A DNA stretch of 64,000 nt from Neorhodopirellula pilleata. GTDB taxonomy: Bacteria; Planctomycetota; Planctomycetia; Pirellulales; Pirellulaceae. Shown piece by piece: positions 25,301 through 40,271 of the stretch; position 1 is the first letter of the stretch, and each line of letters opens with the position of its first letter. A program made the position numbers and the translations under genes. A model generated the notes under the pieces. The model saw only the letters and a program-made list of their open reading frames with translations, had not been told where the DNA came from and did not search any database. The stretch is taken from positions 375,346 through 439,345 of the forward strand of contig NZ_SJPM01000002.1 in assembly GCF_007859915.1 (NCBI RefSeq), written 5' to 3'.

Positions 25301-27574
25301 GGATGCGTCGTCGTCGAACTGGTTCCAGTAATAATCGTGTGCTTTCTGAGCCCAATATCGCTCGCCGTCGCTGAACCAATTTTGATACGTCGGGATCGTT
25401 TCGTCGCCGGACTTCAACACCCGCGTGCCATAAAAAATTCCACCATCACACGGAATCGAAGCTTCGATCGACAGGCCGTAAAAGTACTGCTTGGTTGTGT
25501 TCAGCTTACCTCCGTCGCTGAGCCACGCGATCTTGTGTTCGTAACTCGAACTGGTGTCGAGCAACCCGATCACGGCATCGTCGCCAACGCGGATCATGAA
25601 TTCGAAACGTTGATCCTTGGCAATCGAAAACCCGCCGAGCGTTTGCCGTCCGTTAGGTCCGAACGATTCGATTTGGTCGTTCACCAACACATTCAAATAC
25701 GGAAACGCACTGACTGCTGATGAACGGCGGCGACTGCTCGTCGGCAACGGATGCTCGGCGGCGAAAGCGTCCAGCGCCGGCCATCCGTATTCGTCGAATA
25801 CGCCCGCCTCGAGTGTCCGCTGCAATGTGTCGATCAAATCAACCTTGGCCAAACGGCTCGTCAGCTCGGGGAACTGCTCTCCGGTCTTTTGGCCGGCCGA
25901 TTTGGATAGCATGTTCAACGCTTCTTCCGCGTCGACCAACCCACCCTCTTCGAGTTTCTTGAGTTGATCGTCGAGGAACGTCCACCACAGGCGACGCACG
26001 GTCTCGTGATCGGCGGCGGCCTCTTCGAAACTTCGCTGGCTCGCGGGAGTACGACCGTACGAATGACGTCCACCAACGCTTCCGGAGAACGTCACCAAAT
26101 CGGCCAGTTGGGCGTAAACCTTTCGTCCCAACTTTTCGTGTTCGATCAAATGTGTCAGTTGCGAATTGCGTCGCGGGTGATCCACCTCGGCTCGCAACCA
26201 ACCTTCAAAACTCAACGTCCGATGATCGTCGTAATCCTTGATCGGCAATTTTAAGTCGAGCATCATCTCGAGCACGTCCGCATCGAGCACGCCGCCGTAA
26301 TAACCTCGACGTCCCAGCGGGATCGGCACGCCTTCGTCGCGAATCACGCCCGCGGTCAATTCGATCAATTCGAACACCCTCGGCGGAGGTGACGTCTCCA
26401 CCGTCACCAATCGTCCGATCCACCCCGCCCGACCGCCAGGAATCTCCACATCGCCCATTGCTTCCGAATGGCCCGGTAGCTTTGATGTCGGTTGGCCCAA
26501 CAGCGGCAGGACTTTCCACTCGTCGAGTAGATCCAACCAAGCCCACACGGGACTGTCGTCCCGGTACGAAGACTTCGGGTCGGTGTGAGCCAACAACCAC
26601 ATGCCAAACGACGGATCGGATTTCACCAATCGGGCGACGTTTTTTTTCACCGATTTCCAAAACTGCATCGACGCCCGCGACATCGCCGGTGATGAGATGA
26701 TCGTTTTCAAGAATGAATCGACCTCCGTATTCTCATCCAACCCGGCGGCTTTGGCGAACCGGGCGATGTCCTTGGCCGCCGTCGCCATCGGCGGCATCCC
26801 GCCGAGCGTTCGCCGGACGTTCAAATCGGACAACGTTTCGAACGCCTCGGCCGGTTCGAATTGCTTCTCAAGATCTTTCGTGTATTCGGTCAACGCTTTG
26901 CCGGATAAACAACCGCTCAGCGTGAATTCCAAGACCGCATCGCGGCGACGGTGCCGATCGACGACCAACGCGTGGACCCGTTCGGCTTCGAGCGACTTGC
27001 CGATCGCGCGACCGGCGTAGGTCACGTTGCCCAAGTCCTTATAGATCCTCGCAACCTCTTCCCAAAACGGAGGCAAGAAATGGCGAACCGAACGGTTCAG
27101 CACGTTTGCCATCTCGGTGAACAACTCCATCGCGTGTCCCGGTTTGGACTTCGCCTTGCGGCCGGCGGCTTTGATCTGTTTGACCAAAGCCAACGCGTCC
27201 TTGGCGTTTTCGGGATGCGTGATCAACGCCCAGCTGGCGAACCCCAACGCCCGGCGACTTTGGACGGCGACGGGTTGGCTCTCTCCATCGGGCCGCAAGC
27301 CGAGGAACTCCATCGCCAAATCTTCGGCAGGTCCCAAACGGTCGGCACCCAAGCGGACGACGACCCGATCGCCGAGTGCCCCGCCGGTGTAACGTCTCGC
27401 GACGACCTTCTCGGTCACGCTCGGATCGACGTCGGCATTGGCGGCCACCATCCCGCCGGCAGCCAAGGTCGCTTCCAATCGCAGTTGCTCGGCGGTCGGC
27501 TTGCCGGCTTTGGCGTTCGCGGCGGCTTTTTTGGCCGGTTTCGTTCTTGGACCAGGTTTCGTTGCCTTGCTCAT
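22322..27574 (-). CDS. 1750-residue protein of unknown function in MoxR/VWA operon
   Basis: A very large soluble protein with no signal peptide or clear membrane segment. The N-terminus is Lys/Ala rich (KPAKKAAANAKAGK). The rest alternates helical stretches with globular-looking parts such as YYYGLSIEASIPCDGGIFYG... and C-terminal VFLPGGWEALKLPNLPIETWKLP. I recognise no catalytic motif. Similar long proteins accompany MoxR/DUF5682/SWIM genes in actinobacteria as far as I recall, some annotated only as DNA-binding; this needs a profile search. A relationship to the DUF4132/DUF5724 group is possible because a DUF4132-like gene directly precedes it. Its ATG overlaps that gene's stop as ATGA. Confidence 0.75.
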   Translation of the reverse strand: MSKATKPGPRTKPAKKAAANAKAGKPTAEQLRLEATLAAGGMVAANADVDPSVTEKVVARRYTGGALGDRVVVRLGADRLGPAEDLAMEFLGLRPDGESQPVAVQSRRALGFASWALITHPENAKDALALVKQIKAAGRKAKSKPGHAMELFTEMANVLNRSVRHFLPPFWEEVARIYKDLGNVTYAGRAIGKSLEAERVHALVVDRHRRRDAVLEFTLSGCLSGKALTEYTKDLEKQFEPAEAFETLSDLNVRRTLGGMPPMATAAKDIARFAKAAGLDENTEVDSFLKTIISSPAMSRASMQFWKSVKKNVARLVKSDPSFGMWLLAHTDPKSSYRDDSPVWAWLDLLDEWKVLPLLGQPTSKLPGHSEAMGDVEIPGGRAGWIGRLVTVETSPPPRVFELIELTAGVIRDEGVPIPLGRRGYYGGVLDADVLEMMLDLKLPIKDYDDHRTLSFEGWLRAEVDHPRRNSQLTHLIEHEKLGRKVYAQLADLVTFSGSVGGRHSYGRTPASQRSFEEAAADHETVRRLWWTFLDDQLKKLEEGGLVDAEEALNMLSKSAGQKTGEQFPELTSRLAKVDLIDTLQRTLEAGVFDEYGWPALDAFAAEHPLPTSSRRRSSAVSAFPYLNVLVNDQIESFGPNGRQTLGGFSIAKDQRFEFMIRVGDDAVIGLLDTSSSYEHKIAWLSDGGKLNTTKQYFYGLSIEASIPCDGGIFYGTRVLKSGDETIPTYQNWFSDGERYWAQKAHDYYWNQFDDDASNQEAKKPVLREVDPVTGKEIRESIPPWFEEDLPAGAQINWHTSHLLPAPQGLTRSPLGLADGMLGMRIIARRDGQMESRGIDGRKIVLSNDRQTGGGFDLAMAIIDKPASDSFWMLTNHDALVDVDTGRKIALLSDSVNRYCEGQPILLPRMFFHYFEVRCLKSSKKLRQIKTAQAKKLFDAGLVEHEALKVKEDPNHPDPNRTACHAAVSALLPDAPASLVKGIAKIARMAAVEKISLDKLVAKVSGAGNDGAKSNEKKTSETESMASTAAGSKASAAVQISDDAMNEALSALSVPLAAGGLSDIRRSYYQSTVNFKQIDAVTRFFRTGNVENIPKGDWLFASLIDNAAAGAWKVFWDHAHRGADEGMPVNQRLRGDWLVALRFIADCGLVDLPGRFTLFSGPAPDEAALKKLAAADKGPKEDRPAAIVEGKSRHVVYLVYSYQNSQIVSLSYNETGDPKPPKSFNIENSIPLRKIWGRSGIKHFVDEVEKVETLPLIAPEKLSEAAESLGVSPIEVALAWMGNYRSVRYGQEKLTKELREHYGWKVNEIKTAVTAANADPVSLEVSADGCRRDSKGALGKNIDRTFRSMVATWQEARKAKVILPADVIAALQTLRGGYQRLDTKLLGEFLGDPATSPVLAVSKWSFKLGRQYRSEVVEIEYTPPRSVPVERVFEVLPEAIAILNYSLPPGDPARAKLPGLIDAVRDYLNQDDVILSMGASRTEPFRDDQAIDVEGTIARFSTQVAKCQQDAGGFHTLDGGLIVGAIAPPNISLWFRPARLRTDKDHASLISAASLTFDYSGDGSTHLDMADFVREMRGEAMTQFRENNLGSKFAADAIEQDPRVSAADLVSVVAKKFKISEEAATWYLQLLALHDCSDARIKQWNGWSAAQLKKTKPELLDGGLVVTAKRSRAGRDVFLPGGWEALKLPNLPIETWKLPMFGHTNTDRLRGGYAGLIVCPRPVGEQFRVAWQRVVDGDAPKYEEAMTSNG

Positions 27575-28467
27575 GGCGTTTCCTCCGATGCGGATTCTTC
27601 GACTTTGCGTTTGGCGTAAATCGCCGACGCCATGCGAACCCCTTCGCTGAACGTGACCGGGCCCAAGTCCGCGATCTTGACCGCTTTGTCATTGGCGTCG
27701 ACGAACACCAACGGACCGGTGTAGGTTTCCGCTTCCGGATACTCGTCGCCGACGTAATAGCGGGCTTCGATCATCACGTCGTTTTCCCAAACGCGGCACG
27801 TCGCGTAGCCGCCGCGAACGGGATAGCCCAAACGGCGGCACAGTGAGAGTGCGAAGTTGAGCTGTTCGAACATGCCCTCGGTGTAATCATTGATCGATTT
27901 AAGTTCCGCTTGGTCCTTGGTCGGTTGATGAACGGGGCGGTAAAGTTGATCGATCGTTTGTGTGATCGAAAGGTCGCTGGCAAGTTCGCGAAGCTCTTCC
28001 AAATCGGCGATCAAGATCGGGTGGGGCACCGTCATTGCAGGCGACTTGTGCCATCGCGTCTCGCCATCGAGGTCGACCACGCCCAAGCCGCGCTGGGCGT
28101 CGACCTGTTTGAGCAAACCGGTTTTTTCGAAATTCGGTTTACCCTTCGCATCGACGGGCGCGACGACGAGGTTTTCCAGGCTCGATCGCCAATCCGGGTC
28201 GGCCCAAATTTCGTTGACAACTTCCCGAGGCACCGAGAGTGAACGGAGCATCCAACGTTCGATCGTGTGCCGACATTCGGCTTGGTGATCGTCGAGCCAT
28301 TCGGCGAGCGCCCGCAGCGACTCGGCGATCTCGCTTTCCTTCAACCACTTGGGCAAGGAAGCCAACGTTTTGCCCTGAGGATTACGGCAAACCAATTTGC
28401 CTTTTCGCAACCCGATTTCGTAACCCCGTTCCCCAGGCAGCCAAGCCGCCACCGCCTCCGCCACCAT
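27571..28467 (-). CDS. DUF4132-like protein, first gene of MoxR/VWA operon
   Basis: A 298-residue protein that resembles the DUF4132 domain: DPDWRSSLENLVVAPVD, ILIADLEELRELASDLSITQTIDQLYRPVHQ, GYPVRGGYATCRVW, and TYTGPLVFVDANDKAV. In enterobacterial proteins such as MolR/YehI this domain is at the C-terminus of a long chain. Here it stands alone, immediately before a 1750-residue protein. The start ATG 28467 (MVAEAVAAWLPGERG) is chosen for its strong GGAGGTGG ribosome site 6-8 nt upstream; an in-frame extension to 28548 runs into repeat DNA. It heads the five-gene operon. Confidence 0.75.
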   Translation of the reverse strand: MVAEAVAAWLPGERGYEIGLRKGKLVCRNPQGKTLASLPKWLKESEIAESLRALAEWLDDHQAECRHTIERWMLRSLSVPREVVNEIWADPDWRSSLENLVVAPVDAKGKPNFEKTGLLKQVDAQRGLGVVDLDGETRWHKSPAMTVPHPILIADLEELRELASDLSITQTIDQLYRPVHQPTKDQAELKSINDYTEGMFEQLNFALSLCRRLGYPVRGGYATCRVWENDVMIEARYYVGDEYPEAETYTGPLVFVDANDKAVKIADLGPVTFSEGVRMASAIYAKRKVEESASEETP

Positions 28468-28529
28468 GACCCACCTCCAAGTGACAATGCCAATACACCC
28501 AACACAGATACTAAGCATCGCCGGATCAA

Positions 28530-28622
28530 TTAGTGACGCGTTTTCCAAGTGGCGGCGACTTTTAGTCGCCGTTTCAGGACATGGCGACTGAAAGTCGCCA
28601 CCACTTATTGTTCACGCGATGC
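28530..28622. repeat. Inverted-repeat element, GCATCGCGTGAAC family, degraded copy
   Basis: Right end CCACTTATTGTTCACGCGATGC matches the termini at 36067-36179 and 40343-40456. The left end is mutated (TTAGTGACGCGTTTTCCAAG). The core is the stem GGCGGCGACTTTTAGTCGCC / GGCGACTGAAAGTCGCCACC, the same core that is found inside a gene at 60178-60236. Confidence 0.75.
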
Positions 28623-29740
28623 AAAGCGAGGCGCATTTTGGCACACCCGCCAACGTCCGTGGGGCAACCGCCGAAAGAATTTGTAAAGTGCTACGCCGAA
28701 TCCATAGAAGCCCGACGCGCAACGGGCTGTTGATCTAGTGCGTTCGTCAGTTTTTGTGAGCCGATGGCGTTAGCCACGGGTTCCGAATGGTGGCTTATTT
28801 GCGATAAAGCCCGCGGCTAGCGGCGTGTTGATTTAATCGTAACCCGAAGCGTGAGCGAGGGATAATTGATATCGGCTCATCCCTCCTTACGCAGCGGGTT
28901 CCGAAAAACCAATGCCACAGGCAAAATCGCTACTTCAAAACTCACGCGTCGGGTTTTGATGAGGATTAAACCATCAACCCGCGAACGTTGGCCTGTCAAA
29001 AGGTTCGTGTTGCGGGCGTTTTGGTTTGCGCAAGGTTTATATCCCGAAGGGATCATAGCCATTAGCCGGAGGTTCGAGCGCAGCGAACACCTCCGGTCAG
29101 TGATCTGCGCGATCTCTCGACCCAGAATGGGTCGCAGATTCGACATCAGTGATTGCCGTATTTCGTGTTATTTAAACGCGGTTGATACCAGCCCAAAGCG
29201 TAACCCTCCCCGGCCCGAAGCGGGTCGGCACGGTTTTCGGGCCAACGGCCCATCCGTTTGCCCAGCCCAGTCCGAAGGACTGGGTGATCTCTGTCACCTC
29301 TCCCGAACGCAGTTTGGGGGAGGTCGAGCGACGACGTTCAGGAGTCCGCGAGGGTGGCCTGACGAATCGGTGTTAAGACGGGTCAAAAAAGTGGTCGCAT
29401 CGAGATAAGGTCATAGGAACGCGTTTCAATATTGACAGACCTCAATAACACCATCCGGTATACAAATTCTAAAAATCAGAAAGTCGAAAATGATGCGAAA
29501 CAAGCGACCATTTTCGCGTTCCAAATCCTTACCGGCTTTACCCAGTTCCGCACCGATTCGTCAGGCCACCGCGAGGGAGGGGGCACGAGAGTTGTTTGGC
29601 TGGATCGGCTTGGTTTGCCGTGGGATGCCCCCTCCCGGATCTTGCTTCGCTCGATCCGACCGCTCCCAGCTTCGCAGAGAGGTGACAGGAAGTTGTGGAG
29701 AACGAAAATGTCGCGATACCAAGTTTTTGACAGCCCAGCA
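28623..29740. repeat. Gene-free, palindrome-rich spacer
   Basis: About 1.1 kb without a convincing gene. It holds a TGTTGATTTA-family relative at about 28729-28842 (including the GTGAGCCGATGGCGTTAGCC stem used in the coding repeats at 60506-61069). It also holds a GGAGGTTCGAGCGCAGCGAACACC hairpin at about 29070-29097. Finally there is an inverted pair GGTGGCCTGACGAATCGGTG (29353-29372) / CACCGATTCGTCAGGCCACC (29550-29569). It appears to be a landing zone for small mobile elements beside the integron. Confidence 0.6.
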
Positions 29741-29998
29741 TCACCCCTGCAACAACCGATCCACCGGGCTTTGCAAGCGGCTGTCAAACCCGACCTCCAC
29801 GTGCACATAATTCATCGTCGTTTCGATGTCCTTGTGCCCCATCAACTTCTGAACCGTCGTCGACACATGCAGATCAAGAATGCGTTCTTGCTTCCCTTTT
29901 TGAGCCAGAGTCGCAACGATCGCCGAAAGGCTAGGTTTCGAACGCATCAATACGAGTTCGCGATAACAACCCATCCGCCGAAGCCACAGCCATGCCAA
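29741..29998 (-). pseudogene. Integron integrase (IntI) C-terminal remnant
   Basis: Residues 45-85 of this frame (29744-29866) read TTVQKLMGHKDIETTMNYVHV, then RLQSPVDRLL. This is the IntI/tyrosine-recombinase C-terminus: the GH motif, the nucleophile Tyr (codon 29807-29809), and the SP-D-L tail typical of integron integrases. The HxLRH box and everything N-terminal are missing; upstream residues do not match. It lies on the minus strand with its 5' side facing the plus-strand cassettes, the normal integron arrangement. It cannot encode an active enzyme. Confidence 0.8.
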
Positions 29999-30197
29999 AG
30001 CTCAACAGTGTCGTCAAAAAGAGATCGAGCAACGCTAGTGTTCCCTTAAGCGATGACAAAGCCCCACAATTGCCCAACCAGCCCAGGTCCACAAAGCACT
30101 TTCACAGCCTTGTGGTTTCTGGCTAGCGCCAAAGGCCTCCGCGGGGTATATTCGCAGGATAAAGCCCGGTGTATGAGTATATACCGGTTCAAACCTG

Positions 30198-30215
30198 TAT
30201 AATTATGTTGTTCGT
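30198..30215 (+). promoter_or_regulatory. Possible cassette promoter -10 and first cassette junction
   Basis: A perfect TATAAT lies at 30198-30203 with no good -35 box at the usual distance. GTTCGTC at 30209-30215 resembles the attC core GTTCGCC and could be the left boundary of cassette 1. Both calls are tentative. Confidence 0.35.
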
Positions 30216-30246
30216 CAGACCCAATTGCAATCCTTGAGACCACTAC

Positions 30247-31242
30247 ATGAGCGACACTCCCAGATCAATTACATACCGTCAGCTCTCAGTGATAGGAGTT
30301 ACCTTTGTTGCCGGGCTGCTGGTAGGCCTTTTCTTTCTCTCCGCTTCGAATTCGCAAATAACTTCACTGACGCCTATGGCTCTGATCGGATTCGTGATTT
30401 CGGTCCTTCTCGGCGGGGCGTCGATTATCCTCGCGGTCGTAGCTATCCAGCTCGGGCGGTCATCTGAAACCACGCTCGCCGCCCGCAACGACGACAGCCT
30501 GCGATTGCAGACCGAAATCTACACGAAAACCGCAGAGGCACTTCAGAAGATTGCCGCCTCGACTGACGTTACAGAGAAAAGAATTGAGGACATAATATCA
30601 GGACGCGTTGGCGAAATTTCGCATGATCTCGCACGAAACATACCCCGGTCACGAAAGTCACCAGACCAAACAGAAGAAGCAATTCGCCAGCAGATCTTCA
30701 GATCGCTGAGATCGCAGGAAAGTGAAGCTCAAAGGAAACGCGACAAAGAACTTGAGGAGGCTCGCGAAGAAGCCTATCAGGCCGCCCACAAAAAGGCTCT
30801 CATTGGGTTTGCAAACAAGCAGCACTTTAAAGTAATGAAGCTCGAGCACGGCTCGGTAAATGAGGAAGGTGAAAACCTATTTGATGGCATCTACTCACGA
30901 CGTGGCGACAAGGTCGCGATTTCCACATTCCGGCCGAGTTGGCCAGCGCGGGACATTCAGTTGTTTTTGTTGAGTGCGCTACCAGAATTAAAAAAAGGGT
31001 TGATCACCAAGCTAGTGCTGCTTCTGTTTACCGACGAAGAGCAACCGTTACGATCGAGCACCACCGAGGCATTACTTGAACTATTACCAGAAGATCTGCG
31101 CGAGCGTGTTTTCGTGATCGAATGTACATATGATGATATAGAGCGGGAAATAGATGCCCTCGATGTGACGAACCAGGCGATGCAACGGAGCGGCGGTGGC
31201 GGCGTTTCTGACAATGGCGAATCAACTCCCGCCGCCCGCTGA
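30247..31242 (+). CDS. Integron cassette 1: two-TM coiled-coil protein with possible degenerate nuclease-like domain
   Basis: A 331-residue protein. Two N-terminal membrane helices (VIGVTFVAGLLVGLFFL and IGFVISVLLGGASIILAVVAI) are followed by a charged coiled coil (about 85-185: SQESEAQRKRDKELEEAREE). A C-terminal globular domain of about 130 residues contains FDGIYSRRGDKVAISTF. That segment has the shape of the DG...K-A-E-K strand pair of PD-(D/E)xK nucleases, but the expected E-x-K reads ISTF, so catalysis is doubtful. The stop falls inside attC 1, as expected for a cassette gene. Base composition is more AT-rich than the flanking chromosome. Function unknown; a membrane-tethered defence role is only a guess. 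Confidence 0.75.
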   Translation: MSDTPRSITYRQLSVIGVTFVAGLLVGLFFLSASNSQITSLTPMALIGFVISVLLGGASIILAVVAIQLGRSSETTLAARNDDSLRLQTEIYTKTAEALQKIAASTDVTEKRIEDIISGRVGEISHDLARNIPRSRKSPDQTEEAIRQQIFRSLRSQESEAQRKRDKELEEAREEAYQAAHKKALIGFANKQHFKVMKLEHGSVNEEGENLFDGIYSRRGDKVAISTFRPSWPARDIQLFLLSALPELKKGLITKLVLLLFTDEEQPLRSSTTEALLELLPEDLRERVFVIECTYDDIEREIDALDVTNQAMQRSGGGGVSDNGESTPAAR

Positions 31243-31257
31243 TCGCTGTCGTTCGCC
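31167..31257 (+). other. Integron attC recombination site 1 (91 bp)
   Basis: Outer boxes GACGAAC (31167-31173) and GTTCGCC (31251-31257) are inverted with one mismatch. Inner arm GCGATGCAACGGAGCGGCGG pairs with CCGCCGCCCGCTGATCGC, leaving two unpaired bases (G and A) on one arm, which are the extrahelical bases diagnostic of attC hairpins. A loop region GGCGTTTCTGACAATGG is shared with attC 2. Confidence 0.88.
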
Positions 31258-31275
31258 CACAATGGTATACCTGCC

Positions 31276-31953
31276 TTGACCGTTGACCGTCCATCTCCTG
31301 ATGACATCGATCAATGTGAAGCTCGCCTTGGTGTCGTTCGCAGCCAGATGAAGTTTCTGTGGTGGCCCGGAAGACGGAAACGCCTACTCGATCAATGCTA
31401 CGATATTGGCTACGTTGCTCGTCAGAACGGTGCCAATGATTTGGCGAGGGACAGTTTCCGTAGTGGGATTGCCCTTCTCGATGGAATACGCCCTTCGCGG
31501 ACGAAAGCGTCATTGGCGACGTTCAGCGTTGTGGCAGCATGTCATAATCACTTGGGTCTTCAATACCTCGACGAACATATGCTTGCCGAGGCGGCAGCAT
31601 CATTCGATATGGCGATCTCAGTACGCCAGGAACTGCAACGATTGTTTCCGAAGGACCGCGAAAACGAAGTCTACCTTGGCGGTGCCTTATGTAATCGCGG
31701 TCATGCATGTGCTGACACGAATCCTGACGTCGCACAAGATTTCTACGAACGTTGCCTTTCTACGATCCAGCAACCTAGCCAGCCTTGCGAATGCAGCTAT
31801 TGGGACGAGCAACGCCAATCGTGGTGGTGCGAACAACTGGAAGCTCTCGCACAGGCGCTGAATCAACAATGGGTTGCCCTGGCACCACACTTCATCGATA
31901 ATGCTCAAGCGGGCTTGAAGTCATTGGAAGCAGATGGGCGAACCAAACGATGA
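31276..31953 (+). CDS. Integron cassette 2: helical-repeat (TPR-like) protein
   Basis: A 225-residue, soluble, all-helical protein. Repeated helix pairs such as CYDIGYVARQNGANDLARDSFRSGIALLDGI and LGLQYLDEHMLAEAAASFDMAISVRQEL have the spacing of tetratricopeptide repeats. There is no signal peptide. The frame opens with TTG 31276, 19 bp after the attC 1 core, with no clear ribosome site. It ends inside attC 2, so it is a complete cassette. It may be a scaffold or binding protein; no specific function is recognised. Confidence 0.72.
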   Translation: MTVDRPSPDDIDQCEARLGVVRSQMKFLWWPGRRKRLLDQCYDIGYVARQNGANDLARDSFRSGIALLDGIRPSRTKASLATFSVVAACHNHLGLQYLDEHMLAEAAASFDMAISVRQELQRLFPKDRENEVYLGGALCNRGHACADTNPDVAQDFYERCLSTIQQPSQPCECSYWDEQRQSWWCEQLEALAQALNQQWVALAPHFIDNAQAGLKSLEADGRTKR

Positions 31954-32027
31954 ACCGAAGTCGCGGAGCAGGCGTTTTTGACAATAGAAAATCAATCGCC
32001 GCGACTCGGTTATCGCGGACGTTCGCC
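31937..32027 (+). other. Integron attC recombination site 2 (91 bp)
   Basis: Outer boxes GGCGAAC (31937-31943) and GTTCGCC (32021-32027) are perfect complements. Inner arm CGATGAACCGAAGTCGCGG pairs with CCGCGACTCGGTTATCG, leaving the same two extrahelical bases (G, A) as in attC 1. It has identical overall length to attC 1 and shares the loop sequence GGCGTTTTTGACAATAG. Very strong attC candidate. Confidence 0.92.
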
Positions 32028-32055
32028 CAACAAAGGCTGTCGGAAGAGACCATCA

Positions 32056-33003
32056 ATGCGAGACGTACTTGCAATCTCCTTGTCAGCGCTGGTCATCGCC
32101 ACTGCCGCCCCTTGCTCGCTGCAAGCCGATGACGATAGGGCATTCGGCGGGTTCCGTGTCGCCGGATACTTACCGGACTATCGCTTCGCCGAACTCGATG
32201 TCGAGCCCCTCCACGGCCTGACGGACTTGATCGTCTTTTCTGCCGAACCGAACGTGGACGGCAGCCTCAATCTGAAGCGATTGGAGAACTGCCCGTGGGA
32301 AAAACTGCTCGCGTTCAAAACGAAGCGTCGCGTTCGATTGTTCCTCACCGTAGGAGGGTGGGATCGCTCAACGCATTTCGCTCAAGTCGCGGCATCCCAG
32401 GAAAAACGCAAGACATTTGCGGCCGCCGTGCTACGATTTGCGCTTGAAAAGCGATTGGATGGGATCGACCTGGATTGGGAACACCCGACAGATGGCCCGG
32501 AACAGGAAGCCTACGGCCAGTTGCTTGCCGACCTTCGCTTAGCGTCCAAGCCACATGGGTTGATGCTGACAGTGACTATTGCCGCGTGGCAGCGGCTCCC
32601 GGCCTTGGCGATCCATTCCGTCGATGGTGTGCAACTGATGGCTTACGATCACGACAAGCAGCACTCGACGATCGACGGAACCCGGAAGGACGTGCAAACT
32701 CTCATCGATGCGCATATCCCGGCGGGGAAAATTGTCCTTGGACTACCGTTTTACGGTCGCGACGTTCAGAGTCGGCAGGCGAGCACGTACGGTGAACTTG
32801 TTGCTAAATTCGCTCCCGATCCGAAGATTGATCAGATCGGGCAAATGTACTTCAATGGCCCGGAGACAATCCGTCGCAAAGTCGAATCCGCAATGGATTC
32901 TCGGCTTGCCGGGGTAATGGTGTGGGAACTTGGGCAGGATGCGCCCGGTAATCAGTCCCTGCTGAAAGTAATCCGCGAAGCTGTATCGAGAAGCATCAAA
33001 TAA
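32056..33003 (+). CDS. Integron cassette 3: secreted GH18 chitinase-like glycoside hydrolase
   Basis: A 315-residue exported enzyme. A signal peptide (MRDVLAISLSALVIATAAPCSLQA) precedes a GH18 TIM barrel with SxGG-like LFLTVGGWDRS, the catalytic DGIDLDWEHP (Glu proton donor), and LMAYDHD. GH18 enzymes cleave beta-1,4-linked N-acetylglucosamine polymers or peptidoglycan. ATG 32056 is preferred over an upstream extension because it opens the signal peptide and has GGAAGAG 7 nt upstream. It begins 28 bp after attC 2. A possible truncated attC follows the stop at 33013, so it is probably a third cassette. Confidence 0.88.
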   Translation: MRDVLAISLSALVIATAAPCSLQADDDRAFGGFRVAGYLPDYRFAELDVEPLHGLTDLIVFSAEPNVDGSLNLKRLENCPWEKLLAFKTKRRVRLFLTVGGWDRSTHFAQVAASQEKRKTFAAAVLRFALEKRLDGIDLDWEHPTDGPEQEAYGQLLADLRLASKPHGLMLTVTIAAWQRLPALAIHSVDGVQLMAYDHDKQHSTIDGTRKDVQTLIDAHIPAGKIVLGLPFYGRDVQSRQASTYGELVAKFAPDPKIDQIGQMYFNGPETIRRKVESAMDSRLAGVMVWELGQDAPGNQSLLKVIREAVSRSIK

Positions 33004-33012
33004 CGCGACCGT

Positions 33013-33054
33013 GGCGAACAAAGCGGTGGAATAAATGGTGCCACCCACCATTGA
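33013..33054 (+). other. Possible truncated attC 3 joined to hairpin end of transposon
   Basis: GGCGAAC at 33013-33019, 9 bp after the chitinase stop, matches the outer attC box and is followed by AAAGCGGTGGAAT, which is only partly like an inner arm. The matching half is absent. Directly after it comes a hairpin AATGGTG...CACCATT (33033-33052) that may be the left end of the HUH transposon. Tentative. Confidence 0.4.
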
Positions 33055-33109
33055 CTAGGGGCGAGGTGGTCCGTAGAATTCGGGAAATTACTCAAACCGG
33101 GAGATTGCC

Positions 33110-34270
33110 ATGCCTCGTCCACAACGCTCCGAACAGTTCTCGCCAGAAGAGATTTGTTATGTGCACTGCATACAACGCTGTGTTCGGAGAGCATGGCTGG
33201 CTGGGGTCGATCCGGTCTCGGGGGTCGATTATTCGTTCCGGAAAGAATGGATTCGCAGGAGAATGGAGGCTCTTGCCTCGGTGTTCGCGATCGATGTGCT
33301 TTCCTATGCGATTATGAGCAATCATATCCACCAGATCCTGCGAAATCGGCCCGATGTCTGTGCGCAGTGGTCCGACGAAGAGGTCGCGATTCGCTGGCTG
33401 AGAGTCTTTCCCGGTCGACGGATGGAAGAACATTTGGCTGAACCGACCGAGAATGATGTCAAAACACTTGTCCGGGATAAGAAACGCTTGGCGGAGGTGC
33501 GGCGGCGACTCTGCGATGTGTCTTGGTTCATGAGGGCGCTTTCGGAACCGATCGCACGGATGGCCAATTTTCAAGATCAGTGCACCGGTCGATTCTGGGA
33601 AGGTAGGTTCAAGGCTCAAAGAATTATCGATGACGCCGGGTTGCTTGCCTGCAGCATGTACGTGGATTTGAACCCGGTCCGGGCGGCAATCGCGGGAGGC
33701 CCCGAAGGGTGTCGGTTTACGAGTGCTTATGATCGTGCTGAGGCACAAAAGGGAGAACAAGTCGACTCCGCCGCGTTTGACCTGAAGCCGATTCCGACGG
33801 AGGAAGCCGGCCGCAAGATCCGCGAGACACCGGTCGATGACCTGCGGAAAGAACGCAAAGCGAAGCGAAAGAACCCAACCGGCCGTCGGATCCTGCGTGA
33901 CGCTTGGTTGAGCCCTTTGACAATGAAGCCGGATATCCTGTCCGGCGAAGCCGAGGTTCACTCCGGTGGCGTTCGCAGTAGTGATCGTGGGTTCTTGAGT
34001 CTGTCTTGGAAGGACTACTGGGAACTGCTTTGTTGGACGGCCAAGCAGAGTGTCCAAGGCGTCAAAGCGGAGGTGCCTCCACGGTTGGCGAAGTGTTTAG
34101 CGGCACTGGGTATTGATGTGTCGATGTGGCGAGATTTGGTTTGGAACTGGCAACGTTACTTTGGCAAGAGCGCGTGTGTGGGTCGTCCCGAGTCCATGAA
34201 ACAGCACGCCGAGCAAACGGGCCGCCACCACTACCGCGGCCAGGGTAGCGGTGCGGCCTGCTTCGCGTAG
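33110..34270 (+). CDS. REP-associated / IS200-type HUH tyrosine transposase
   Basis: A 386-residue single-strand transposase of the Y1 (HUH) superfamily. The metal-binding motif is in YAIMSNHIHQIL (HIH) at about residue 66. The nucleophile-helix region is in LLACSMYVDLNPVRAAIAGG at about residue 180. The N-terminal block FSPEEICYVHCIQRCVRRAWLAG is typical of planctomycete members. It is longer than classical IS200 TnpA (about 150 residues), as is usual for RAYT-like proteins. It lies directly after the cassette array and appears intact. Fragments of related genes occur at 35676-35825 and 40261-40535. Confidence 0.88.
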   Translation: MPRPQRSEQFSPEEICYVHCIQRCVRRAWLAGVDPVSGVDYSFRKEWIRRRMEALASVFAIDVLSYAIMSNHIHQILRNRPDVCAQWSDEEVAIRWLRVFPGRRMEEHLAEPTENDVKTLVRDKKRLAEVRRRLCDVSWFMRALSEPIARMANFQDQCTGRFWEGRFKAQRIIDDAGLLACSMYVDLNPVRAAIAGGPEGCRFTSAYDRAEAQKGEQVDSAAFDLKPIPTEEAGRKIRETPVDDLRKERKAKRKNPTGRRILRDAWLSPLTMKPDILSGEAEVHSGGVRSSDRGFLSLSWKDYWELLCWTAKQSVQGVKAEVPPRLAKCLAALGIDVSMWRDLVWNWQRYFGKSACVGRPESMKQHAEQTGRHHYRGQGSGAACFA

Positions 34271-34650
34271 TCGGCGTGCTTCCAATCGTCGTCCGTTCAA
34301 ACTGACAACTGAACCGGTCGGTTAGGCTTGCCGCTGCCCTCATCGTCATATCAAACGTGAAAATCGTAATCATTGCAATTCCATGCCAACCGAATTGCCG
34401 CGATGACTGAACCAGCGTTCGACAGCGATTGGCTCGATTTCCATCGTCTTTCGAGCGAGCACGAGCACCGCGATGCTGAGCACGAGCACGAAAGAAGGTC
34501 GAAACCAGGCCGTGCACCGAACGCGAAGAAACGTGGATGGCACCCTCCGGCCCTCCTGATGGACAAGCAGCACGATCGCTTCGCGGATCGGTTGGTCCAA
34601 AGGTGGACCAAGACTGCACCAAGCTACCTGCGGCGACTCTGGCTGACGTT
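34271..34650. other. Gene-free spacer with GAGCACGAGCAC repeat
   Basis: About 380 bp. It holds several GAGCACGAGCACGAAAG-type imperfect repeats at about 34455-34500, the same simple-repeat family as at 57655-57780. No supported gene. GTTAGGC at 34322 matches the classical integron core consensus but has no paired arm. Confidence 0.45.
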
Positions 34651-35037
34651 TCACCACGTTCGATTGACGGGGTACGCATCGAACTGCGTATCCGCCGAAA
34701 CAACTTCGACGCCTTCGGCGATCGCTTGGGCAATGAGGAGGCGATCGAATGGATCGCGATGGTAAAAGGGCAGGTTCAGCAACTCTGCCGTATGACCGGG
34801 GCTGATGTTCAGAATCTCGAAGCCATAATTCACCAGTGCGATGTCGATGAAGTCAGAATACGGCTGATTCAATTGCCACTTGCCAAGACTAATCTTGATT
34901 GCCATTTCCCAGTACGAAGCTGGGCTGAAAAGAATTGTGTTGGTTGGCTCACCGATCACAGCGGCTGCTGGGGTGCTCAGCTTGGCATCGCCTTCGATGA
35001 ACCAGTACAGCGTGTGAGTGTCGAGCAAGACTCTCAC
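34651..35037 (-). CDS. PIN-domain toxin of type II toxin-antitoxin pair
   Basis: A 128-residue PIN-domain ribonuclease of the VapC-like group. The acidic residues are visible in order: LLDTHTLYW, SYWEMAIKISLGKW, DPFDRLLIAQA and SADTQFDAY. The GTG start at 35037 overlaps the antitoxin stop as GTGA, the usual coupled arrangement. Known relatives cleave RNA when freed from the antitoxin. The pair lies just outside the cassette array and points against it, so it is not clearly a cassette. Confidence 0.9.
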   Translation of the reverse strand: MRVLLDTHTLYWFIEGDAKLSTPAAAVIGEPTNTILFSPASYWEMAIKISLGKWQLNQPYSDFIDIALVNYGFEILNISPGHTAELLNLPFYHRDPFDRLLIAQAIAEGVEVVSADTQFDAYPVNRTW

Positions 35038-35279
35038 TGCATGTAGTCGGCGAAGTCGTCCAGGTGCGCGTCATCGTCACGGACGATCGAGATCATGCCT
35101 TTGCCAAGTCCTGGTTTACGAAACTCGGCTAGCTTCCTTTGCTCGGAAACCAATTTGGCGACCGGTTTGTCGTCATCCGTAATCACCAACTCCGCACCGG
35201 GAGCCAGACCCGCGATCAGGTCCTTCAAATGCCCTTGGGCTTCGTCGATTGAGATTCTGTCGGCCATCGGATTTTCCAT
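35034..35279 (-). CDS. Phd/YefM-type antitoxin
   Basis: An 81-residue antitoxin with the Phd/YefM N-terminal DNA-binding fold (RISIDEAQGHLKDLIAGLAPGAELVITDDDKPVAKL) and a flexible acidic C-terminus that would block the PIN toxin. GGAGG lies about 11 nt upstream of ATG 35279; an internal ATG four codons later (MADRIS) is the other choice. It is expected to autorepress the operon together with the toxin. Confidence 0.88.
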   Translation of the reverse strand: MENPMADRISIDEAQGHLKDLIAGLAPGAELVITDDDKPVAKLVSEQRKLAEFRKPGLGKGMISIVRDDDAHLDDFADYMQ

Positions 35280-36235: not shown

Positions 36236-38125
36236 ATGCTCAAGAATACTTCGGTCGTGATCTGTGCCAATCTCATCATCGCATGCGTCGCAGTCATTGG
36301 ATTTGCCCAGAACGCACAAATGCCACGTGAAGATGTCATTGACATCCCTGCGATCAGTGGCGGCTTGTGCATTAGCAATGTGTTCCAATCGAATATGGTA
36401 TTGCAACGTGACAAACCCATCACTGTTTGGGGATGGGGTGAGCCTGGTGAAGACATCGTCGTCTCGTTTGCGGGTAAAAAACAAACGGCAACGGCGGCGG
36501 ATGACCGAAGATGGAAAGTCACATTGCCTGCGATGACCGCCAACAGTCAGCCGCAAACGATGACGATCAAAGGCACCCGCAAAACGCTGACATTAGACAA
36601 CGTCCTGATCGGCGACATTTGGGTGTTGGGTGGTCAGAGCAATATGGAATTTCCGTTGGATCGAGTCGAGAACGGTGAGCTGGAAATCATCTCGGCTCAT
36701 TACCCCGGCATCAGGATTCTGACCGTTCCGGCGATGAACGGCCAGGACAAAAAACCGGGCTTCGCGAGACTGCACGAGTGGAGTGACTGGTTCGGACGCC
36801 ACTATCGCAAAGGCGATTGGGATGAGTGTTCTCCCGAGATTGTTCGCGAACTGTCCGCGATCGGATACGTGTTTGCTCGACGCATTCATATGGCTTCTCA
36901 AGTGCCTATCGGCGTGATTGATGCATCCCGCGGCGGCACGACGGTCGAGACCTGGACGCCTGATTCGGTACTCAGGACAATCGACTCGCCGCAAGTGCGA
37001 ACCCTGTTGCAAGAATGGGATCAAAAGGTCGCCGTTTGGGATTCCAAAGCTGACCTTGAGCAACGCGTTGCAAACCATCGGCAAAAGATTGAGCGTTTCG
37101 AAAAGGAAGGCCGAGAGATGCCAGCCAACGAGACCGAGCCGACTGATCTGCGTCCCGGACCCGCGAAGGATCAGAATCGGCCTGGCAATTGTTACGCCAG
37201 CATGATCGGTCCGCTGGAAGGACTCTCAATCAAAGGCGCCATCTTTCACCAGGGCTACAACAATTGCTTTAACGGAACCGAAGGTGCGATCATGTATCGG
37301 GATGTCTTTCCTCACATGATCGAATCTTGGAGGGCGGCGTTCAACGATCCCGAGATGTCATTTGGCATCTTGTCGCTATGCACCGAAGGACCAGCGCAGA
37401 CACTGGACAACTATTGCGAGATGATGGCCAATCCGGGTCCTTTCATCCGCGAAGCTCAGTATCAAACGTTCTTGGACCTGTATCAAAATGGCGACAAGAA
37501 CATCGGCTTTGTGAGCACATACGACCTTCGCCGCCGTTGGTATCATCCACAGTTGAAAATCCCAGCCGGAGAACGGATCGCTCGTTGGGCATTGGCGACC
37601 CAATACGGATTCGAAAAATCCATTCGTTGGAAACCACCGATCGCGACGGGCGTCCGTGTCTCCGAAGACCATATCGAGCTGCAACTCGACGAGCCGGCGA
37701 GCGCAGTTGACGATGGTGGTCCGATCCTTGGCTTTGCCGTCGCAGGAGAAGACCGAAGATTTCATCCCGCCAAAGCCGAACATCTCGTGACCGGCAAGAC
37801 CGATCGAGGCCAGCCGCAAACGAACAAAAAGGTCTTGGTATTGAGCAGTCCAATGGTCCCTCGCCCGATCCACTTCCGTTACGCTTGGGGACGTAGTCCG
37901 TTAGGAAACCTGCAAGCCGAACGCATGACAGACATCCCCTTTGCCACGCAGCGTAGCGACGATTGGTCGCTGGAGAATGTTCCTCTTGGTGTGCACGAAT
38001 CGGAGATAACAACGAAACTGGACCGTCAACAGCAACGCAGGTTGCTCGACGCGTTGCGTCAACAGGACGTTGAACGGATATTGCGGCAAGCAGAAGATCT
38101 GAAGTCGCGTGCAGGTGGCACCTGA
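36236..38125 (+). CDS. Secreted sialate O-acetylesterase (SASA/SGNH family)
   Basis: A 629-residue exported esterase that removes acetyl groups from sialic acid or other acylated sugars. An N-terminal signal segment (VICANLIIACVAVIGFAQ) is followed by a beta domain (VLQRDKPITVWGWGEPGE) and the SGNH nucleophile block WVLGGQSNMEFPLDRV. IGVIDASRGGTTVETWTP and IKGAIFHQGYNNC follow. Family length is normal. It shares a strand with the S9 peptidase gene 55 bp downstream, so they may be cotranscribed. The exact substrate is not defined by sequence. Confidence 0.88.
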   Translation: MLKNTSVVICANLIIACVAVIGFAQNAQMPREDVIDIPAISGGLCISNVFQSNMVLQRDKPITVWGWGEPGEDIVVSFAGKKQTATAADDRRWKVTLPAMTANSQPQTMTIKGTRKTLTLDNVLIGDIWVLGGQSNMEFPLDRVENGELEIISAHYPGIRILTVPAMNGQDKKPGFARLHEWSDWFGRHYRKGDWDECSPEIVRELSAIGYVFARRIHMASQVPIGVIDASRGGTTVETWTPDSVLRTIDSPQVRTLLQEWDQKVAVWDSKADLEQRVANHRQKIERFEKEGREMPANETEPTDLRPGPAKDQNRPGNCYASMIGPLEGLSIKGAIFHQGYNNCFNGTEGAIMYRDVFPHMIESWRAAFNDPEMSFGILSLCTEGPAQTLDNYCEMMANPGPFIREAQYQTFLDLYQNGDKNIGFVSTYDLRRRWYHPQLKIPAGERIARWALATQYGFEKSIRWKPPIATGVRVSEDHIELQLDEPASAVDDGGPILGFAVAGEDRRFHPAKAEHLVTGKTDRGQPQTNKKVLVLSSPMVPRPIHFRYAWGRSPLGNLQAERMTDIPFATQRSDDWSLENVPLGVHESEITTKLDRQQQRRLLDALRQQDVERILRQAEDLKSRAGGT

Positions 38126-38180
38126 ATCCAGCGGCGGAACGATTCTTGGGGTAGTGTGTCACTTTCTAGGTACTTGGCGA

Positions 38181-40271
38181 ATGATTCGAATTCTTTTTTC
38201 TTCATCGGTTTTCGTGCTATTGATGATTCTTTGCGCGCACTCCGATCTTTCGGCGGAGCCGCTTCCGAAGGCGTGGGTTGATGGGACGACACTGGCTCGC
38301 TTGAAATCGGTGTACGAACGCAATGAGTTTCGTCCGGATCCTTTTCAAGCAAGATGGTTACCCGACAGCAGTGGCTACTCGGTCGAGCAAACGGATCCTA
38401 GCAATGGAAGATCGACGACGGTCCACTTCAACGTTGAGACGGCCAAGCCATTCGATCCGCAACGGACCGTGGAGCAACCATCCAACTCACGCCGGTTGGT
38501 TTCCCCGGATGGAAAATACAAGATTGAGTTTCAAGACCGCGATGTCTTTGTGCGGAGCCTGGAAACGGACAAGCTCGCCCAACTGACGCATCGCACGCCC
38601 GACCGCGACATCTCTTTTCGTGGTTTAAGCTGGTGTGCCGATGGAAAACACGTGTCCGTCATTGAGGTCGACCAGACACTCGTCAAGCAGCGATCCATGC
38701 TGGTCCCTGAGGATCCCTCGTATCCTGCGGTTCGGGAGCAACGTTTCGCACGTGTTGGCGGGAAGATTGCTGCGCATCGAGTTGGGATCGTCAACGTCGA
38801 GTCAAGCAAGTGCGAGTGGCTGCCCCTCGAATCTCCAGATGAAGGTTTTTATTTAGGAACGGTGGAGTGGGCGGGGGGCACCGATGAGCTGCTCATCGAA
38901 CGATTGAGTCGCTCTCGCGACGTCCGCGAGTTTTTTCTTGCGAAGCCTGATGGCGAGATGAAACGGATTTTTCATGAATCGGATCCCGCTTGGGTGGTGG
39001 CCAGCCAGGCAAAGAATTCCGGGCTGGTTTGGATTCGTGATGGGAACGAGTTCATTGTGATTAGCGAAAAAGACGGCTGGCGACATGCCTATCGCTATTC
39101 GCGAGCCGGCAAGGAGTTGTCGCTGCTGACTCCTGGGAATTACGACATAATCGATCGCGCCACGGTTGATGAAACCAACCGTTGGTACTATTTCTACGCT
39201 TCCCCCGAGAACGCAACGGAAAGATACCTATATCGAGTTTCCTTGGATGGGTCAGGCAAGCCACAACGGATCACACCGCCCAACCAGCCGGGAACCCACG
39301 ACTACGACTTTTCTCCTGATGCGAAGTGGGCATTTCACACGGTTTCGACCTTTGACACACCTCCGATCGTTGAACTCATTGAAGTCGCGGGGCATCGAAC
39401 CGTCGCGGTGGTCCGATCGAACGAGGAACTGCACCAGTTAGCGAGATCCGTCGTGCATCATCCGACCGAGTTCGTGCAACTTGATATCGGCAACGACATC
39501 AGCCTGGACGCGTGGATGATGAAACCTAAGGATTTCGACGAAACGAAACAGTACCCCGTTTTCATCTATGTTTACGGTGAACCACATTCACAAACGGTGC
39601 TGAACAGTTGGGGCGCCGGGCAAAGTCACTTTTTGCGAGCCGTCGCGGATCTTGGCTATTTGGTGGTGTCGATCGACAACCGAGGCACGCCGGCCCCCAA
39701 GGGCGCTGCGTGGCGTCGAGCGATCTTCGGCAGCCTCGGTCCCCTCTCGACCGAGGAGCAAGCCGCTGGCTTGAAAGAATTGGCACGCATGCGTCCCTTC
39801 GTCGATCTTTCTCGTGTGGGCATTTGGGGATGGAGCGGTGGCGGATCCAACACACTCAATGCCATGTTTCGCCAACCCGACGTTTATCATGTCGGCATCG
39901 CGGTGGTACCTAAACCGCAACCGCATCTGTACAACGCGTGGTTTCAAGAAATCTACATGCGGACCCGTGAAACCAATCCGGGCGGCTACCAGCGATCCGC
40001 CCCCATCCATTATGCCGAGGGTTTGAAGGGAAAGTTGTTAATCGTGACCGGCTCCGGAGAGACCAATACGCACATTCAAATTATCGAAGGGCTAGTCGAT
40101 CGCCTGATCGAACTCGGGAAGCCGTTCGACTACATGGTGTATCCCAACCGCGATCACGGGCTGCAAGAGGGCACCGGAACTCTGATTCACGTGAGGATGT
40201 TAATTACGCGTTATCTGTTACAGAACCTCCCCCCGGGACCACGAACGAAGGAAGCATCCGATGCCCATTGA
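38181..40271 (+). CDS. Secreted S9 family prolyl oligopeptidase / dipeptidyl peptidase IV
   Basis: A 696-residue serine peptidase. A signal peptide (MIRILFSSSVFVLLMILCAHSDLSA) precedes a beta-propeller domain (about residues 40-440) and an alpha/beta hydrolase domain. Catalytic residues: GIWGWSGGGSN (nucleophile Ser) and YPNRDHGLQ (His), with the Asp expected between them. ATG 38181 is chosen since it opens the signal peptide; a longer frame from 38109 overlaps the esterase end. The C-terminal codons GATGCCCATTGA overlap the start of a transposase fragment. Confidence 0.9.
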   Translation: MIRILFSSSVFVLLMILCAHSDLSAEPLPKAWVDGTTLARLKSVYERNEFRPDPFQARWLPDSSGYSVEQTDPSNGRSTTVHFNVETAKPFDPQRTVEQPSNSRRLVSPDGKYKIEFQDRDVFVRSLETDKLAQLTHRTPDRDISFRGLSWCADGKHVSVIEVDQTLVKQRSMLVPEDPSYPAVREQRFARVGGKIAAHRVGIVNVESSKCEWLPLESPDEGFYLGTVEWAGGTDELLIERLSRSRDVREFFLAKPDGEMKRIFHESDPAWVVASQAKNSGLVWIRDGNEFIVISEKDGWRHAYRYSRAGKELSLLTPGNYDIIDRATVDETNRWYYFYASPENATERYLYRVSLDGSGKPQRITPPNQPGTHDYDFSPDAKWAFHTVSTFDTPPIVELIEVAGHRTVAVVRSNEELHQLARSVVHHPTEFVQLDIGNDISLDAWMMKPKDFDETKQYPVFIYVYGEPHSQTVLNSWGAGQSHFLRAVADLGYLVVSIDNRGTPAPKGAAWRRAIFGSLGPLSTEEQAAGLKELARMRPFVDLSRVGIWGWSGGGSNTLNAMFRQPDVYHVGIAVVPKPQPHLYNAWFQEIYMRTRETNPGGYQRSAPIHYAEGLKGKLLIVTGSGETNTHIQIIEGLVDRLIELGKPFDYMVYPNRDHGLQEGTGTLIHVRMLITRYLLQNLPPGPRTKEASDAH

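Follow-up and report, generated by a model that had tools for sequence, protein, structure and literature searches.

An attC array with a retained attI site and an apparently chimeric intI relic in Neorhodopirellula pilleata: very probably a decayed chromosomal integron

We analysed a stretch of 64,000 nt from the genome of the planctomycete Neorhodopirellula pilleata (contig NZ_SJPM01000002.1, positions 375,346 to 439,345; the window in the following). It harbors a relic of the integron integrase gene intI on the minus strand and, on the plus strand, an attI site, two attC sites with their gene cassettes, and a mobile element (Table 1). The initial annotation, made from the letters of the window, had described a decayed chromosomal integron. 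The attC model matches, the attI, and the minus-strand relic of intI led us to the same view: the locus is very probably a decayed chromosomal integron which resembles a CALIN (the IntegronFinder term for a cluster of attC sites lacking an integron integrase) and which retained its attI while the local intI was lost. Other places in the same genome are named C2, C9, C42 and so on.

Searches for attC sites were performed with R2, a covariance model built from 15 sites of this genome that all lie outside the window. Within its training alignment 91.7% of the cells were paired, compared to 27.6-49.5% in slid structures; 14 of 25 pairs were changed on both sides, and none of 500 shuffles reached the covariation score. 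In the window, searched at E up to 10, attC1 and attC2 were the only sense-strand matches, and the opposite strand of attC2 gave one weak antisense match (27.1 bits). The search of the window against Rfam resulted in no match at gathering scores.

Table 1. Features of the integron locus in window coordinates.
Feature	Position	Strand	Evidence or comment
intI 3' flank and C-terminal end	29143..29859	-	near-identical to C42 platform (blastn); MITE-like insert inside
intI C-terminal relic	29741..29859	-	38 aa 100% identical to C42 IntI; TIGR02249 281-315
Older N-terminal intI relic, fused to C-terminal piece	29860..29992	-	58% over 50 aa to C42 IntI 68-117
attI flank, former intI promoter region, with conserved TATAAT	30050..30209	+	82% over 163 bp to C9:6542-6704
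attI core GTTCGTC, crossover G30210/T30211	30210..30216	+	five-way identity stops at TTGTT
Cassette 1	30211..31251	+	attI and attC1 crossovers; ORF 30247-31242, 331 aa, no Pfam family
attC1	31167..31257	+	R2 86.1 bits, E 2.3e-23
Cassette 2	31252..32021	+	ORF 31276-31953, 225 aa; weak TPR match below curated cut-off
attC2	31937..32027	+	R2 79.7 bits, E 1.9e-21
Cassette 3, truncated	32022..33029	+	GH18 chitinase-like ORF, stop 33003; PF00704 E 3.7e-33
Probable truncated third attC, left end (R'' GGCGAAC and arm)	33013..33029	+	pattern match
Mobile element with REP-type transposase ORF, terminates array	33030..34544	+	93% over 1521 bp to C10:310060-311580
MITE, miniature inverted-repeat transposable element; ORF, open reading frame; REP, repetitive extragenic palindromic.

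The initial annotation had reported two 91-bp attC sites with an unpaired G and A at equivalent hairpin positions and with gene stops inside the sites, and all of this was confirmed. Both sites matched R2 with high scores. They form direct repeats of 91 nt each (31169-31259 and 31939-32029) with a mutual identity of 74%, and have R''/R' cores, paired arms and two extrahelical bases. Extrahelical bases of attC determine the choice of the strand. In the left arms of the window sites these bases are G31182 and A31189 (attC1) and G31952 and A31959 (attC2). In the 15 sites outside the window the second base was always A and the first was G in 11, C in three and A in one, so that the extrahelical G and A represent a general pattern. 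The ORFs of cassettes 1 and 2 end within attC1 and attC2, respectively.

The array begins at an attI with a G/TT crossover, which the initial annotation overlooked, as it did the probable third, truncated attC. Four more copies of the region 30050-30216, with 81-85% identity, were found elsewhere in the genome (C9, C8, C2 near 902 kb, and C52), and the copy on C9 adjoins an intact intI. When the five copies were aligned, they had ACCGGTTCAAACCTGTATAATTAT(G/T)TTGTT in common and diverged immediately thereafter. An end of the five-way identity at TTGTT is expected if different cassettes entered at one G/TT crossover. The conserved TATAAT at 30198-30203, just 5' of the attI core, may be the cassette promoter, and the cassettes would then be transcribed from it. 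A near-palindrome just 5' of attI, at 30166-30187, reads CCGGTATATGAGCATATACCGG in C9 and C8, is less perfect in the window, and is a candidate operator.

A cassette inserted as a circle should carry an R'' that matches its own start and not the adjoining R'. We tested this with 124 of 146 R2 matches in the fetched arrays, after 14 antisense matches and eight partial, duplicate or very weak ones had been dropped; the expected ends were present as GTT in 102 and as AAC in 100 of the 124 sites. Both ends were usable, with a neighbour within 5 kb, for 68 cassettes, and 51 of these were informative. R'' matched the start of its own cassette in 42 of the 51 and the R' in place in only two. Permuted starts gave a mean of 9.4 and a maximum of 18 in 10,000 permutations, which ignore the relatedness of cassettes, several rows being copies of a single 215-bp cassette. 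Without the commonest R'' the own start was matched in 24/32 and the R' in place in 2/32, with a permutation mean of 3.7. The cassettes of the window lie between crossovers and have an R'' complementary to their own start: cassette 1 is informative and among the 42, its R'' being the reverse complement of its own start, and cassette 2 agrees but is uninformative.

All three cassette ORFs are open. That of cassette 3 is predicted to start with the ATG at 32056. Cassette 3 begins with TTCGCC, and GGCGAAC at 33013-33019 fits this start. The sequence at 33013-33028 matches GRCGAACNAWSCGRTG without mismatch, while 0.31 matches were expected window-wide at up to one mismatch. The 17-bp stump at 33013 is therefore probably a third attC that was cut by the mobile element. 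The ORF of this element matched NF047646, the REP-associated tyrosine transposase family, with E 1.1e-6 and 28.6 bits (cut-off 80). No firm family was found for the proteins of cassettes 1 and 2; weak lines to Csx1, ZorA and acyl-CoA synthetase were dismissed as being at chance level.

The initial annotation had interpreted the sequence to the left of attI as a C-terminal remnant of IntI. A minus-strand fragment of IntI is indeed present (29741-29998), but it is not restricted to the C-terminus. Its score of 29.5 bits against TIGR02249 falls far short of the cut-off of 265, as it should for a fragment. The stretch 29700-29859 is 99.4% identical over 160 bp to the end of the C42 intI and this identity breaks off abruptly at 29859; in the wider 3' part, blastn aligned 215 bp to C42 at 95.8% and 301 bp at 97.3% identity. 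Beyond the break, the 112 bp from 29868 to 29979 again resemble C42 DNA (69% identity), but at a place 900 bp further along. Between the N-terminal and C-terminal relics there is no catalytic core, and in-frame stops are present in the upstream or start region. The array is thus not flanked by the intact intI of a complete chromosomal integron. Judging from these alignments, the relic combines two intI copies in a chimera and is not a plain C-terminal remnant, and such a chimera would arise most simply by recombination between intI copies. The region in front of the relic is C9-like, the N-terminal relic C42-like. Within the 3' flank lies a MITE-like insert of 218 bp (29353-29570), bounded by perfect terminal inverted repeats of 20 bp and by what looks like a target duplication, CGCGAGG; the corresponding flank on C42 lacks it.

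An integrase elsewhere in the genome had been suspected, and TIGR02249 matched above its cut-off at two places, C9 and C42. The C9 intI has an open frame of 519 aa (336.9 bits; L018 6720-8279), and that of C42 carries one in-frame TAG. The best PDB match of C9 IntI was IntI4 (2a3v, E 1e-55). It has the R, H-x-x-R, H and Y residues, which we take to be those of tyrosine recombinases. About 63 extra residues (191-257, compared to 4 in IntI4) lie between its N-terminal and catalytic parts. From its sequence, C9 IntI is apparently the single intact integron integrase of the genome. The intI on C58 is internally deleted and cut by the contig end, and fragments of intI were found on C5, C7 near 283 kb, and C2 near 154 kb. 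The named contigs retrieved with IntI were mostly planctomycetal, one of them from Rhodopirellula europaea. A tree of 32 rows paired C9 IntI with a fragment from this species; six congener IntIs grouped in a clade to which neither C9 nor C42 IntI belonged, and the fragments on C5 and on C2 near 154 kb had their best matches in this clade. IntI-like recombinases of about 350 aa, where complete, were observed on C10 (L027 7415-8173), on C7 (L026 11044-11445), and in the genomes G002 and G004, where they are multi-copy; some of them lie in or near attC arrays.

The relic on the minus strand is divergent from the cassettes on the plus strand, as the initial annotation had stated, and is not reversed as in reverse-orientation integrons; typical IntIs of Spirochaetota are generally in reverse orientation (PMC9668308). 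This classical geometry, which the initial annotation had pointed out, is not remarkable here. In 7/7 platforms of the genome (window, C9, C42, C58, C5, C7 near 283 kb, and C2 near 154 kb) intI has its 5' end towards the array, a count that leaves out IntI-like recombinases below the cut-off in the arrays of C10, C7 near 67 kb, and C40. An additional weak plus-strand IntI match (E 2.7e-4) lies on C2 near 154 kb. The same geometry was found, among the matches listed, for all seven congener intI above the cut-off with an attC within 10 kb. Neither the integron nor its geometry is thus unusual within the genus.

The two attC sites, the attI, the order of these elements, the closure of the cassettes, and the chimera could be demonstrated at the level of sequence, and we propose the following history. 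An integron integrase would have inserted circular cassettes at the attI core with the crossover G30210|T30211, resulting in the order attI, cassette 1, cassette 2, cassette 3. The catalytic core of the local intI would have been lost later, probably through recombination between two intI copies, because an older and diverged N-terminal relic is followed by a C-terminal end of the C42 type that has hardly changed. The mobile element may have cut the third attC afterwards.

Several points weigh against this interpretation. The E-values of R2 are rough due to a short calibration, and R2 was trained on the same genome and is not IntegronFinder's own attC model. Its specificity was tested in 10 relatives, none of which has an IntI above the TIGR02249 cut-off among the matches listed. 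Five of them gave no R2 match; the other five gave 1, 37, 7, 6 and 6 matches, which may be arrays without intI. The folding of both sites as bottom strands, a check suggested by the initial annotation, had a positive outcome for attC2 (z -4.5, 0/200 shuffles as good) but was weak for attC1 (z -1.2, 28/200 shuffles equally good), the top strand of which folded more strongly (z -2.4, 3/200 shuffles). Folding alone is, however, weaker evidence for an attC than the covariance model. R2 did not match at the stump of the third attC, which is proposed from 17 bp. No cassette body in common was detected when 28501-33200 was compared to the fetched loci by blastn. The N-terminal relic resembles the C42 IntI while the attI resembles that of C9, so that these two clues point to different integrases as the builder of the array; at an assembly contamination of 6.13%, C42 could in principle derive from another strain.

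The idea that the hairpins are dispersed non-integron repeats of REP or MITE type, which had been named as a possible refutation, could draw on their many genomic copies and on the adjoining REP-type transposase ORF. Genome-wide, R2 gave at least 149 matches at E up to 1 and at least 145 at E up to 0.001. With a 10-kb gap these at least 149 matches fall into 26 clusters. Only six are single sites, while 143 of the 149 listed matches are found in 20 clusters of two or more sites, each in one orientation. Clusters at contig ends may be pieces of the same array; no fewer than 13 clusters sit 10 kb or more inside the nearest known contig end, nine of them with two or more sites. Several clusters have an attI or intI at their start, the genes between the sites differ, and R'' closes on the start of its own cassette. 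Together with the strong model matches at both window sites, this makes the repeat explanation practically negligible. R2 matches were present in all 13 genomes of the genus, with 33 to at least 150 in each.

Two further explanations concern the integrase. Off-target insertion by an IntI elsewhere, loss of intI, and rearrangement have been proposed as routes to a CALIN (PMC8618304). On the first route a distant integrase would have used a secondary site in the window, and the nearby intI fragment would be an unrelated leftover. In line with this, three other attI copies (L081, L024, and L082) have no intI in the fetched stretches by tblastn. The attI of the window, however, sits exactly at the start of the array with an upstream region homologous to the C9 intI region, and the relic occupies the canonical divergent place, so we judge an off-target origin to be very improbable. 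The array could also be alive, as a working satellite that exchanges cassettes with the help of C9 IntI in trans. It is plausible that C9 IntI can move the window cassettes, because this intact integrase adjoins an attI region that is 82% similar to that of the window. Additionally, attC2 is 86% identical to one attC of the C9 array and 92% identical to one on C17 (blastn), and the cassette ORFs have remained open. Against an active exchange, no window cassette was found in the other fetched arrays, to which the comparison of cassettes 2 and 3 was confined instead of the whole genome. The protein of cassette 1 matched only itself in its own genome and nothing in 12 congeners, and among 27 other relatives merely its attC-encoded tail was found, in one of them. 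We regard a living satellite as possible but rather doubtful, and retain the decayed chromosomal integron with loss of the local intI as the preferred explanation.

The most unusual observation lies outside the window. A gene-less cassette of 215 bp (for example L019 2238-2452) occurs 21 times in full or nearly full length, on C2, C7, C8, C10, C17, C42, and C58. The copies belong to eight clusters, several of which are at contig ends and may be joined. No full copy was found in the 12 congeners. On C42, on C58 and, as an interrupted copy, on C2 near 902 kb, this cassette immediately adjoins attI. That it codes for a 72-aa protein was rejected, as the minor alleles in 19 aligned copies were distributed 62/79/59 over the three phases. 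One could imagine the whole genome as a dispersed integron network, in which two attI types are common to the arrays, a single intact integrase acts in trans after the other intI decayed or recombined, and the non-coding 215-bp cassette spreads as a selfish or regulatory passenger. We consider it unlikely that all of this applies. No dispersed integron network in a planctomycete was described in the literature that we searched, which comprised few of the subscription papers.

The protein encoded on the left flank (27571-28548) is present in 3/12 congeners. On the right side, a protein encoded at 38109-40271, not directly next to the array, matched at family level in 12/12 congeners and has a close copy in 11 of them. 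Both proteins occur in three genomes, where they are encoded on separate contigs or about 0.4 Mb apart, so that no empty site could be defined. On the minus strand beside the truncated array (34651-35279) we observed a PIN-domain ORF and an ORF for a Phd/YefM-like antitoxin (below cut-off).

The locus would reveal from its sequence the route to one CALIN-like array, in which recombination between integron copies led to the loss of intI and left attI in place. With five related attI, about 150 attC and one apparently intact integrase, the genome represents a natural set that allows asking whether arrays without integrase are dead or run in trans.

This kind of integron is already known, since both planctomycete integrons and CALINs have been published. 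IntegronFinder 2 calls a CALIN from two attC sites upward (PMC9024848), and like such clusters the window has at least two attC and no working intI adjoining. In contrast to them, attI and a relic of intI persist here, which makes the route readable: of the proposed routes, the locus appears to show the loss of intI with rearrangement. CALIN cassettes may still be mobilised in trans (PMC9668308). For Planctomycetes, intI or attC sites were published (PMC2426708, PMC8352920; for Rhodopirellula baltica PMC3108266). The sedentary chromosomal integrons of planctomycetes have the same attC structure, a divergent intI and cassette genes, whereas here the local intI is destroyed and 26 clusters and several attI copies are present. 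In Xanthomonas, chromosomal integrons with inactivated intI are likewise arrays that remained after the loss of the integrase (PMC8618304). They belong to another phylum, and the window differs by its chimeric intI relic and because its genome has further arrays and an intact IntI. The less ordinary features, namely the wide dispersal of arrays, the shared attI copies, and the non-coding 215-bp cassette, lie outside the window. Gene-less cassettes with promoter activity are described for Vibrionaceae (PMC11014356); the 215-bp cassette, known from sequence alone, is similar in lacking a gene and different in its 21 near-full-length copies.

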